Below are positions 8,219 through 26,783 of a stretch of 33,281 nucleotides of DNA, in pieces (position 1 is the first letter of the stretch; every line of letters starts with the position of its first letter). Under the pieces are notes generated by a model, which saw only the letters and a program-made list of their open reading frames with translations, had not been told where the DNA came from and searched no databases. This stretch comes from Microbacteriaceae bacterium (GTDB taxonomy: Bacteria; Actinomycetota; Actinomycetes; Actinomycetales; Microbacteriaceae): assembly GCA_947373155.1 (NCBI GenBank), contig CANBWO010000011.1, positions 1 through 33,281 of the forward strand, written 5' to 3'. Position numbers and translations under genes: made by a program.

Positions 8219-8561
8219 ACGGTCTTTAATCTTGGCACATTAGCCAGCGCCTTGGGGTATTCAAACCAAGACCGTAATTCGTTATCTTTTTTCAATTTCT
8301 CTTTAAATCTTTATTAGTACTAATAACCAGCTGTGGAATTGTTGATAACTAGTTATTTCCCTTTCGGGAGTAAGAAACTACATCGATGTAAGTTGTATAC
8401 ACAGCTGTGGATAAATCTGTGTATAACTATCAAGCCTGTTAGTTGTCTATTTTTGATTCACCAGTTAGTGGCCGGTAATTAAGCCATTTCTAGCAAGTTA
8501 TCCACAGCATTCAACATGTTTATGGACAGGTGGTTTTTGATGAAAATCTAAGAATCTTGGA
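8219..8561. other. Chromosomal replication origin, dnaA-dnaN intergenic part (oriC)
   Basis: This 343-bp gap is gene-free and AT-rich. Perfect DnaA boxes (TTATCCACA or its complement) are at 8406-8414 (minus) and 8498-8506 (plus). Close matches are at 8340-8348 (TGTTGATAA), 8395-8403 (GTATACACA), 8418-8426 (TGTGTATAA) and 8520-8528 (TTATGGACA). An almost pure A+T stretch at about 8281-8327 is a candidate unwinding element. Three short palindromes sit between them (8345-8356, 8379-8390, 8400-8409). The position between dnaA and dnaN is the standard oriC place in Actinobacteria. Confidence 0.88.
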
Positions 8562-9977
8562 TTAGGAACGCTGGTTGTTCTTGATGCGAGCCAGGATCTC
8601 GGTTACGTGTCCGTAAACCTCGCGCTTTCGACCCATGTCCTCTTTGATTTTGTTGCAAGCATAAAGAACGGTGCTGTGGTCGCGGCCTCCAAAGAGGGCT
8701 CCGATTTTTGGTAAAGAAAGGCTGGTCTGGTCGCGGCAAAGATACATGGCAATTTGACGAGCCTGAGCAATGGCCTGGATACGGGAACCGCCGGATAGGT
8801 CGTCGACACTGATTCGGTAGAACGATGCCACCACATTCATGATCTCGGCTGGTGTCGTGTTACTTGTTTCACCAACCGGAACAATGTCTCGCAAGACTGT
8901 CTGAACCAGCTGCATGGTGATTGGCTGGTGGTTCAGGTTGGCAAAAGCCATAACGCGAATCAGGGAACCTTCGAGATCGCGAATGTTAGAAGAAACGCGT
9001 TCCGCCATGTAAGGCAGGATTTCGTCTGGAACTCGAAGCTTTTCGTTGCTTGCCTTCTTACGAAGGATGGCGATTCGGGTCTCAAGTTCAGGCGCTTGAA
9101 TGTCTGTGGTTAGACCCCAGTTGAAGCGCGTAATCATTCTGTCTTCAAAGCCCTCCATGTCCTGGGGTGGCTTATCACTGGTTAGAACAATCTGCTTGTT
9201 GTTGTTGTAAAGACTATTGAAGGTGTGGAAGAACGCCTCTTGGGTCTGCTCTTTACCTTGCAAAAACTGGATGTCGTCGATAAGCAGGATGTCTATGTCC
9301 CTATAGGCTGCCTGGAATTCGGAGTTCTTATTGGTCTGAATTGCATTGATGAATTCATTGGTGAATTCCTCGCTGGAAACGTAGCGAACCTTGCGCTTTG
9401 GATTCAGTGCCAGGGAATAGTGCCCGATGGCGTGAAGCAGGTGGGTCTTACCCAAACCTGAAGCTCCGTAAATAAACAAAGGGTTGTAGCTCTTGGCAGG
9501 ATCCTCAGCTACGGCAAAAGAGGCAGCATGTGCAAACCGGTTTGACCCACCAATAACAAACGTGTCAAAGGTGTACTTGGGGTTCAACCTGGTTTCGTGG
9601 TTTCGGGAAATTGGAGTTGAGCTTAGGTAACTCGGAACCTCAACTGGTTCCTGTGCAACCGAAACCGCTGTGGTCGGGGCACTCAGAGTGTCGTTTATTA
9701 CGCCCTCGAGGTCTGAGTTGATTTTAAGATTTAGGCGAACGGCTCCACCGAATGCGGCGTTATCTGCCATGACTTCATTGATGATGCCCATCATGCGCTG
9801 TTCGATCATTCCCTTGGTGATTTCGTTGGGAACTTCTGCGAAAAGGGTCTCGCCCAAAACCGCTACCGGTTCAATAAGGCTTATGAAACCAAGAGCCTGT
9901 TTGCTGACTCTTTCGTCTGCGCTTAGCTTTCCAAGGATCGAGTGCCAGAGCGTGGCTACAACGTCTTCATCGCTCAT
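8562..9977 (-). CDS. dnaA: Chromosomal replication initiator DnaA
   Basis: DnaA binds DnaA boxes, opens oriC and helps recruit the helicase. With the ATG at 9977 the protein has 471 aa; this start has AGGGG 5 nt upstream, whereas the in-frame GTG at 9983 would sit directly on that SD. Domain I (residues 1-90) and a short linker II (about 90-130) are followed by the AAA+ domain III, with Walker A GASGLGKTH (about 171-179) and Walker B DILLIDDIQF (about 229-238). Domain IV carries the DNA-binding signature GGRDHSTVLYACNKI near the C-terminus. Linker II is short for an actinobacterial DnaA. DnaA-box clusters flank the gene on both sides, consistent with autoregulation. Confidence 0.99.
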   Translation of the reverse strand: MSDEDVVATLWHSILGKLSADERVSKQALGFISLIEPVAVLGETLFAEVPNEITKGMIEQRMMGIINEVMADNAAFGGAVRLNLKINSDLEGVINDTLSAPTTAVSVAQEPVEVPSYLSSTPISRNHETRLNPKYTFDTFVIGGSNRFAHAASFAVAEDPAKSYNPLFIYGASGLGKTHLLHAIGHYSLALNPKRKVRYVSSEEFTNEFINAIQTNKNSEFQAAYRDIDILLIDDIQFLQGKEQTQEAFFHTFNSLYNNNKQIVLTSDKPPQDMEGFEDRMITRFNWGLTTDIQAPELETRIAILRKKASNEKLRVPDEILPYMAERVSSNIRDLEGSLIRVMAFANLNHQPITMQLVQTVLRDIVPVGETSNTTPAEIMNVVASFYRISVDDLSGGSRIQAIAQARQIAMYLCRDQTSLSLPKIGALFGGRDHSTVLYACNKIKEDMGRKREVYGHVTEILARIKNNQRS

Positions 9978-9983
9978 AGTCAC

Positions 9984-25072: not shown

Positions 25073-25084
25073 TTTCAAAGCTAG

Positions 25085-25114
25085 AGCGGGTGACCATTTT
25101 GGTCACCCGCTTTT
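25085..25114 (+). terminator. Intrinsic terminator of the rpsF-ssb-rpsR-rplI operon
   Basis: A 12-bp perfect stem, AGCGGGTGACCA (25085-25096) with TGGTCACCCGCT (25100-25111), a TTT loop, then TTT. It separates the ribosomal operon from dnaB. Confidence 0.92.
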
Positions 25115-25430
25115 GCTTTCCCGGTTTAACCGCAGGTAAAGGACTATCGCAAACCGAACCAGAATTGGTTCGCTTTACCGAAAAGTTATCCACAACTCTC
25201 TACCTTAGGTTTAGGGTTTGGCTAATTACTTATCCACAGTTCTACAACCCTTTATTTATAAGGGCTTCCAGCCTGTTTCCACAATTACTCCACAGGGTTA
25301 TCAACAAGTTATCGACAGGTCTTACGGCGTGTTTCCACAGTTATCCACAGCTCTGTGCACAGGGTTGGTTGAAGGTTAAATGTCGGTGACCAATGCTATG
25401 ACTGAAGTATTAGGTCTTAAGGAGATCAAC
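25115..25430 (+). promoter_or_regulatory. dnaB upstream region with a DnaA-box array
   Basis: This 316-bp gene-free stretch holds many DnaA boxes, all on the plus strand. Perfect TTATCCACA: 25186-25194, 25230-25238, 25341-25349. One mismatch: 25298-25306 (TTATCAACA) and 25309-25317 (TTATCGACA). Two mismatches: 25275-25283 and 25331-25339 (both GTTTCCACA) and 25286-25294 (TACTCCACA). From 25275 to 25349 the boxes end at 25283, 25294, 25306, 25317, 25339 and 25349, i.e. steps of 11, 12, 11, 22 and 10 bp, close to one helical turn. An AT-rich tract with a small hairpin (about 25247-25264) lies upstream of the phased part. The dnaB promoter must lie in or after the array; no clear -35/-10 pair was found. 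Confidence 0.75.
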
Positions 25431-26783
25431 ATGAGTTTGGCTGCAGTGCCACCCCTAGAGCAGAACCTCGGTCAGCGAGTCCTGCCTAGCGATATGTTGG
25501 CCGAACAAAGCACATTAGGCGGCATGTTGCTCTCCCAAGAGGCCGTGGCGGAGGTATTCGAGCAGGTCAAAGCCGCAGACTTCTACGCGCCAAAGCATGA
25601 GCTCATTTTTGAGGCAATCGTTAACCTTTACAGCAAGGGTGAACCAACAGACGTAATCACAGTCACAGACGAACTGGTCAAGAGCGGAAACCTGGTTCGA
25701 GCCGGCGGCGCAGATTACCTACACACCCTCACTTCCATCGTTCCAACCGCAGCTAGCTCAGCCTTCTACGCGGCAATCGTTAAGGAAAAGTCGATTCTGC
25801 GCCACCTAGTAGAGGTTGGTACTCGGATCGCACAGATGGGCTACAGCAATGAGGGCGAGGTAGAAGACCTAGTCAACTCGGCTCAGGCCGAGGTCTACGG
25901 TGTAGCCCGTGCCAACGCCACAGACGAATTCAGCACCCTGGGGGATTCACTCCAGGCTGCCATCGATGATATTGAACTGGCTCAGAACCGTGGAGGTGAG
26001 CTGGTTGGGGTTCCTACCGGCTTTGCGGAACTAGACGAACTTACTCACGGCCTTCACCCGGGTCAGCTAATCATCGTTGCGGCTCGTCCTGCTGTCGGTA
26101 AGTCAACGCTCGCGGTCGACTTCATCCGAAACGCGGCTATTCGTTACAACAAGCCAGCCATTTTCTTCTCGCTTGAAATGGGGCGGTCCGAAATCGCCAT
26201 GCGTATGCTCAGTGCCGAAACCAGCATTCCGTTGCAGAGCATGCGAAAGGGAATGGTCGATAACAGCGACTGGACCAAGATCGTTTCGGTTCGTAGTCAG
26301 CTAAACAGCGCACCGCTTTACATCGATGACAGCCCAAACCTCACACTTGTGGAGATTCGTGCCAAGTGTCGTCGTCTGGTCAAGCAGTACGGCCTCAAGT
26401 TGATCGTTATCGACTACCTGCAGTTGCTCACCAGCGGTAAGAAGGTAGAAAGTCGTCAGCAAGAAGTATCCGAGTTCAGCCGCTCGCTCAAGTTGCTGGC
26501 CAAAGAACTCAACTTGCCGGTTATCGCTATCTCTCAGCTAAACCGACAAAGCGAACAGACCAAGGACAAGAAACCTGATATCTCGCAGCTGCGTGAGTCT
26601 GGCTCGCTAGAACAAGACGCCGATGTGATTATCTTGCTCCACAGAGAAGGTATTGGTGAAAAGGATCACCCACGTTCCGGCGAGGCCGATCTGATTCTGG
26701 CCAAGCAGCGAAACGGCCCAACCGGAACCATTACCGTTGCCTTCCAGGGCAGGTACTCGCGTTTTGCAAATATGAAGGCCTAG
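25431..26783 (+). CDS. dnaB: Replicative DNA helicase DnaB
   Basis: A 450-aa hexameric 5'-3' helicase. The N-terminal domain starts at LPSDMLAEQSTLGGMLLSQE; the RecA-like domain has Walker A ARPAVGKST (about 218-226), Walker B LKLIVIDYLQLL and the QLNRQSE and DKKPDISQLRESGSLEQDAD motifs. No intein or insertion is present. I chose the ATG at 25431, with AAGGAG 6 nt upstream; an in-frame ATG at 25380 has no SD and would add 17 residues. Its promoter region carries the DnaA-box array, so its expression may follow DnaA activity. Confidence 0.98.
   Translation: MSLAAVPPLEQNLGQRVLPSDMLAEQSTLGGMLLSQEAVAEVFEQVKAADFYAPKHELIFEAIVNLYSKGEPTDVITVTDELVKSGNLVRAGGADYLHTLTSIVPTAASSAFYAAIVKEKSILRHLVEVGTRIAQMGYSNEGEVEDLVNSAQAEVYGVARANATDEFSTLGDSLQAAIDDIELAQNRGGELVGVPTGFAELDELTHGLHPGQLIIVAARPAVGKSTLAVDFIRNAAIRYNKPAIFFSLEMGRSEIAMRMLSAETSIPLQSMRKGMVDNSDWTKIVSVRSQLNSAPLYIDDSPNLTLVEIRAKCRRLVKQYGLKLIVIDYLQLLTSGKKVESRQQEVSEFSRSLKLLAKELNLPVIAISQLNRQSEQTKDKKPDISQLRESGSLEQDADVIILLHREGIGEKDHPRSGEADLILAKQRNGPTGTITVAFQGRYSRFANMKA

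Follow-up and report, generated by a model that had tools for sequence, protein, structure and literature searches.

At the replication origin, the initiator DnaA recruits the helicase DnaB. The window analyzed here, a stretch of 33,281 nucleotides from a Microbacteriaceae bacterium, raises the question of why a dense array of DnaA boxes, all in one orientation, lies directly upstream of dnaB. The array is real, conserved, and helically phased. We propose that the segment from 25186 to 25361 is probably a cis-regulatory DnaA filament site of dnaB, most likely an activating one, with a second input from PafBC.

The window carries dnaA on the minus strand (8562-9983) and the gene for the replicative helicase, dnaB, on the plus strand (25431-26783; TIGR00665, E = 3.4e-151 on the open reading frame 25380-26783). 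The likely start of dnaB is the ATG at 25431 rather than the in-frame ATG at 25380; the former is placed 6 nt past a ribosome-binding site, AAGGAG (25419-25424, plus strand), that was read from the sequence, and the alignments of several homologues begin at residue 1 of the 25431 start. An inverted repeat with 20-nt arms that are 90% complementary (25077-25119, plus strand) forms a hairpin with a T-rich 3' arm directly 3' of rplI. By eye, this hairpin is terminator-like and divides rplI from the dnaB region; the terminator scan reported no terminator and left the hairpin unscored. The intergenic region between dnaA and dnaN (8219-8561) contains boxes on either strand and a 40-mer at 8287 that is 85% AT, and it is consistent with an ordinary oriC.

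DnaA boxes in the window were defined as TTWTNCACA with at most one mismatch, and TTRTNCACA was used for some counts (the box at 25353 and the density per 250 bp). With the first definition, seven DnaA-like boxes in one orientation were found within 165 bp upstream of dnaB. The motif scan located perfect boxes, TTATCCACA, at 25186-25194 and, 44 bp past the first, at 25230-25238, both at positions that could be aligned in relatives from the genus. These are followed by boxes with a single mismatch at 25275-25283 (GTTTCCACA), 25298-25306 (TTATCAACA), 25309-25317 (TTATCGACA), and 25331-25339 (GTTTCCACA again), and by a perfect box at 25341-25349 (TTATCCACA), whose columns are among the most conserved of the genus alignment. 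A weak DnaA-like site with two mismatches, TACTCCACA (25286-25294), falls outside the one-mismatch list and was read from the sequence. The promoter-proximal DnaA-like box, CTGTGCACA (25353-25361), was identified by its TTRTNCACA score and by conserved CACAg columns in the genus alignment; it is 12 bp beyond the 25341 box and had been overlooked in the initial annotation. All of these sites are on the plus strand, and from 25275 onward they are spaced by 11, 12, 11, 22, 10, and 12 bp when the weak box at 25286 is included.

Rescanning the sequence bore out the array coordinates and the orientation that had been reported initially. Five of the six array boxes listed there have zero or one mismatch to TTWTNCACA, whereas the one ending at 25294 is the weak site described above. 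The two outlying perfect boxes are also real, but the numbers quoted for them (25186 and 25230) are starts, whereas the other numbers in that list are ends. The array had further been called denser than either flank of dnaA. This holds against the region upstream of dnaA but not against the dnaA-dnaN region, the number of boxes per 250 bp (TTRTNCACA, at most one mismatch) being 7 upstream of dnaB, 7 in dnaA-dnaN, and 4 upstream of dnaA.

The clustering of DnaA boxes just before dnaB exceeds chance. Among 300 dinucleotide shuffles of the window, four reached 5 boxes within 165 bp and none went higher, compared with the 7 observed, and the 5 boxes observed within 75 bp were reached by one shuffle in 300. 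Across 400 kb from a single-contig congener, 250-bp segments with at least four boxes were confined to the dnaA-dnaN region (9), the region upstream of dnaB (8), and the region upstream of dnaA (4). In three single-contig congeners, close groups of at least three TTATNCACA were likewise confined to the neighborhood of dnaA and the region upstream of dnaB; the dnaB site of G016 has just two TTATNCACA (strict form). As a separate observation, three genomes contain two perfect DnaA boxes approximately 503-512 bp apart in what by eye seems to be a syntenic place after a secA-like open reading frame (G000:C8:60754 and 61257; G047:C1:291367 and 291879; G016:C1:270126 and 270638). These pairs are possibly another DnaA site.

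For the genus, 60 genomes were searched, the window's own included; 57 matched, and 50 loci (the window and 49 relatives) were examined. Seven partial or low-ranked matches (G014, G020, G035, G043, G044, G054, and G056) were left out, and one of the loci examined (L108) provides 132 bp of upstream sequence only. At least three same-strand boxes were found in all 50 loci (median of 6) and a pair of boxes 11 or 12 bp apart in 47 of them, and the array has thus passed the comparison of boxes and spacing in near relatives. The genus alignment conserves CGGCGTGT, the 25341 box, the promoter-proximal CACA, and the promoter core TGTC...ATGCTAgAcA. A reverse-strand box is located between -335 and -265 in 43 of the 50 loci, 35 of which contain two such boxes; this interval is free of them in the window and its closest relative.

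The nearest named records are metagenome-assembled genomes of Microbacteriaceae and Micrococcales. The set used here, the best 80 of 568 records, overlaps the genus set and is mostly, not wholly, made up of named Microbacteriaceae. At least three same-strand boxes lie within 450 bp in 72 of these best 80 of 568; the other 8, three of them Clavibacter, have two or fewer, which is counted against a regulatory reading. For the class, 144 other genomes matched; the scan took in 90 upstream stretches, and 67 of the 71 genera entered the count, once each. These 67 genera from 33 families contain 285 boxes within approximately 600 bp; shuffles predict 26.8, and the reversed sequence contains 43. At least three boxes are present in 52 of the 67 genera, and 44 exceed all 100 of their own shuffles; the 15 genera with fewer than three boxes and the 23 that fail to exceed all of their own shuffles count against regulation. 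In other classes, from which 105 genomes matched and 20 were scanned (one with 702 bases only), the signal is weak, with 25 boxes versus 7.0 expected and one strong case (G221, 5 boxes).

The six array boxes of the window fit an 11-bp period with a mean cosine of 0.90. Same-strand spacings cluster at 11-12, 22-23, 32-33, 43-45, and 54-56 bp in the genus and in the named records (best 80 of 568), and the same spacing classes, represented by fewer pairs, recur in a set of 65 other-family genera. The mean cosine at the 11-bp period is 0.85 for the genus, 0.81 for the named records (best 80 of 568), and 0.78 for the 65 other-family genera, where random placement gave 0.17 (SD 0.07, maximum of 0.35 in 300 placements); the loci are related and hence are not independent draws, and each genus enters the other-family set once. 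A pair 11 or 12 bp apart occurs in 26 of these 65 genera and in none of the reversed sequences. The remaining 39 genera have no such pair, and this too is counted against regulation. The in vivo preference of Escherichia coli DnaA is for gaps of 2-3 bp between boxes (PMC11317965). Since a start-to-start distance of 11-12 bp corresponds to gaps of 2-3 bp, the spacing of the boxes in the window is the pair spacing that E. coli DnaA prefers, and the window contains same-strand pairs of the double-box or filament-site type.

The array also stays with dnaB. In 20 ten-kilobase stretches that end in dnaB, a cluster of at least three boxes was found immediately upstream of the gene in 18, the exceptions being G060 and G062, and a single cluster was found elsewhere in these 200 kb (G170). 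The gene for rplI was located in 18 of the stretches, and in 13 it ends 1.4-8.7 kb from dnaB; in 12 of these 13 the cluster adjoins dnaB and not rplI. So close an association with one gene would be unexpected for a free-standing reservoir or origin.

The array leads up to a predicted core promoter of dnaB, TGTCGGTG-N8-TATGAC (25381-25402, plus strand), which was derived from the genus alignment and from pattern scans and is RecA-NDp/PafBC-like. The core of RecA-NDp/PafBC promoters is TGTCRG-N10-TA (PMC5656591 and PMC8151990), and this pattern is present in the window at 25381-25398; coupling with a DnaA array is not described in the passages of those two papers that concern these promoters. 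The same core was found in 21 of 50 genus loci, 61 of the named records (best 80 of 568), and 20 of 65 other-family loci (one of 65 in the reversed control of this last set). Close to the start of dnaB, the shorter pattern TGTC-N12-TA was found in 49 of the 50 genus loci (none reversed), 74 of the best 80 of 568 named records (one reversed), and 27 of 65 other-family genera (three in the reversed control). The full consensus tTGTCRgtg-8nt-TAnnnT is not matched in the window, the first base and the sixth base of the -10 element being different, and within the window alone the number of consensus matches is within chance (1 found versus 0.49 expected at up to three mismatches).

When the full RecA-NDp consensus was applied with at most one mismatch to three genomes (G000, G005, and G047), 16, 12, and 19 matches were obtained, respectively, compared with 8, 11, and 5 for the backward pattern; the matches did not form a clear regulon, and dnaB was missing from them. 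A tighter pattern, derived from the genus consensus for dnaB, ranks dnaB first in each of these three genomes, a result that is partly circular. The window's genome contains two adjacent genes for WYL-domain proteins (G000:C33:4670 and 5634) that are probably pafB and pafC. The dnaB promoter resembles a PafBC DNA-damage promoter, and its sequence suggests that PafBC may control dnaB. In Mycobacterium tuberculosis, dnaB is partly PafBC-dependent, yet its induction persists with both PafBC and RecA down.

The distance between the array and the promoter was evaluated in 68 family records from other genera, which remained after 12 of the 80 (best 80 of 568), likely genus members, were removed by hand. 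CACA-N6-TTTG is present in 45 of these 68 records, and a near-identical pattern was found in 44 versus none in the reversed sequences. By eye, the consensus of this set has a TAnnnT hexamer 18 bp after a TTGnnn hexamer. This arrangement would put the center of the box near -48 relative to the predicted transcription start, a common position for activators. Elsewhere, the exact CACA-N6-TTTG spacing is less frequent (12 of the 50 genus loci and 6 of the 65 other-family genera), and this is counted against a regulatory reading.

Other conserved elements accompany the boxes. An imperfect inverted repeat with the genus consensus AACCcTnAgg...GGTTTAGGGTTT was recognized in the genus alignment between two DnaA boxes (25194-25219). 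Inside the array is a conserved non-box element, CGGCGTGT (25325-25332, plus strand), which reads CGGCGTTTC in many relatives and is possibly a site for a partner protein. The pattern CGGCGT(G/T)*TT for this element was found in 69 of the named records (best 80 of 568) compared with 2 for the reversed and none for the reverse-complement pattern; counts of 21 in the 50 genus loci and 4 in the 65 other-family genera mark it as a feature of the Microbacteriaceae only. Class loci such as L292, L295, L305, and L306 contain an element of the GCAGGTCAG type upstream of dnaB. In the class set, 11 of 20 CAGGTCA motifs begin 17-18 bp past the first base of a reverse DnaA-box-like core, the cores having been picked post hoc and without a control. 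As a dnaB-specific site, GCAGGTCAG was rejected; it is also found 12 times in 30 dnaA loci and elsewhere in the ten-kilobase stretches.

The initial annotation had suggested that dnaB transcription depends on DnaA and had regarded such control as undescribed in Actinobacteria. The second statement is contradicted by PMC7738170, which covers M. tuberculosis and Mycobacterium smegmatis. Of the five top DnaA regions of M. tuberculosis in vitro, one is upstream of dnaB (Rv0057), and ChIP-seq in M. smegmatis recovered the homologues of all five regions, the one upstream of dnaB included. A DnaA mutant of M. tuberculosis with reduced binding upstream of dnaB under-expresses dnaB (PMC7738170). By description, the mycobacterial region is like the one in the window in gene and place, whereas the published passages on it mention neither a phased array in one orientation nor a conserved spacing. 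Caulobacter dnaB, in a different phylum, is similar by description in having predicted DnaA boxes upstream and is a member of the DnaA regulon (Hottes 2005, via PMC8203912). The double DnaA boxes of E. coli share the gaps of 2-3 bp and the start-to-start distance of 11-12 bp with the window; the window has a longer array in place of single pairs, and the passages of PMC11317965 on these boxes do not list dnaB among the targets.

Within the literature searched, PMC7738170 alone, in the portions consulted, joins DnaA with the phrase "upstream of dnaB". That search, within openly accessible literature, yielded no description of the class-wide phased architecture. A 2006 Streptomyces paper by Smulczyk-Krawczyszyn reportedly concerns DnaA-box clusters. 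On the published passages, control of dnaB by DnaA is an already known kind of regulation, in Actinobacteria as well, and the window is a member with an unusually clear architecture.

The suggestion that dnaB is under the control of DnaA is supported by the conservation of the array, its phasing, its linkage to dnaB, its place next to the promoter, and the mycobacterial binding. We infer that DnaA binds and activates at this site in the present organism and that DnaA-ATP has a role in doing so; by analogy with the one published mutant, activation is the most likely outcome. DnaA would fill the strong boxes and spread over the weak ones 11-12 bp apart on one face of the helix, and the resulting directional filament would end at the dnaB promoter. 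Activation of dnaB transcription by the filament would cause helicase output to rise with active DnaA around initiation, and the promoter, which resembles a DNA-damage promoter of the PafBC (RecA-NDp) type, would provide a second input to dnaB.

Alternatively, the array may be an origin-proximal reservoir or conversion site for DnaA, similar to datA or DARS, that mainly binds, inactivates, or reactivates DnaA, its position next to dnaB being secondary. The datA, DARS1, and DARS2 loci of E. coli also have several DnaA boxes outside oriC; datA and DARS2 use sites for IHF (and Fis) and DARS1 a special flank (PMC4585315), whereas the array in the window is tied to dnaB. The number of boxes is comparable to that of the dnaA-dnaN region, and the dnaA-dnaB distance was found to be 16-141 kb in the 43 genomes measured (of 44, with G137 left out; a closed circle was assumed when dnaA and dnaB were at opposite contig ends). 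The number of boxes drops as this distance increases (rho = -0.45, n = 43, P = 0.002), with rho values of -0.61 for genus means (n = 18) and -0.73 for family means (n = 12). The negative correlation between families had first been seen in 28 genomes with hand-entered values and was repeated from sequence on the 43. Pure gene regulation does not predict this trend, which is therefore counted against the regulatory reading.

Within families, however, the trend is gone (rho = 0.11, n = 38), and the overall trend weakens once family f21 is left out (rho = -0.33, n = 40, P = 0.036). The array, moreover, remains by dnaB where rplI is kilobases away, and it ends at a fixed distance from a promoter-like element in the 45 of 68 other-genus family records described above. 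A reservoir as the primary function is thus unlikely, and an added role in titration near the origin is possible. In the three measured loci of family f21 (L178, L364, and L365, from G166, G176, and G110), dnaB is 86-141 kb from dnaA and is preceded by 3, 3, and 1 boxes, respectively.

Repression of dnaB by DnaA bound to the array, after the model of dnaA and mioC in E. coli, which are repressed through multiple DnaA boxes in their promoters (PMC4585315), is equally doubtful. The last box is near the core promoter, but the boxes are upstream of the predicted core promoter and do not overlap it, and the M. tuberculosis mutant that binds less at this region under-expresses dnaB (PMC7738170).

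It had also been suggested that the array is a third unwinding site, which would make it a second or third replication origin. The density and common orientation of the boxes are compatible with an origin, and over 400 kb of one single-contig congener (G005) the GC skew stays close to zero between -20 and +10 kb of dnaA. The minimum of the cumulative skew within 30 kb is near -14 kb, closer to dnaB (-16.5 kb) than to dnaA, but it is only approximately 120 bases lower, the skew is too flat to place a switch, and across the full 400 kb the lowest value is reached at -179 kb. The region upstream of dnaB is less AT-rich than dnaA-dnaN (GC of 0.44 versus 0.36), and its AT-richest 40-mer is 72.5% AT compared with 85%, so that, by composition only, it lacks an AT element of the oriC kind. 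None of the three regions compared contains three DnaA-trios in a row, and the trios therefore do not discriminate among them. With the array traveling with dnaB in addition, an origin at this position is very improbable. An artefact of chance or composition is scarcely credible: there is no overall excess of boxes in the whole window (45 found versus 46.3 expected), but the clustering and the conservation and phasing in other families contradict this explanation.

A wider and more tentative possibility is that the array represents an ancient, actinomycete-wide module of phased DnaA filaments that acts as a helicase switch and as a DnaA sink tuned to the distance from oriC, and that in the Microbacteriaceae has been fused to PafBC control and supplied with partner sites (CGGCGTTTC, GCAGGTCAG, and the inverted repeat). 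Such a module would have two jobs, turning on helicase production as active DnaA accumulates and serving as an origin-proximal sink. If dnaB is indeed regulated by DnaA, the conserved array at its promoter would complete a regulatory loop, with the initiator also determining how much helicase is available. Transcription activation by DnaA is poorly understood (PMC11317965), and an array on one face of the helix that ends at a damage-type core promoter would provide a clean and mutable system in which it could be studied.
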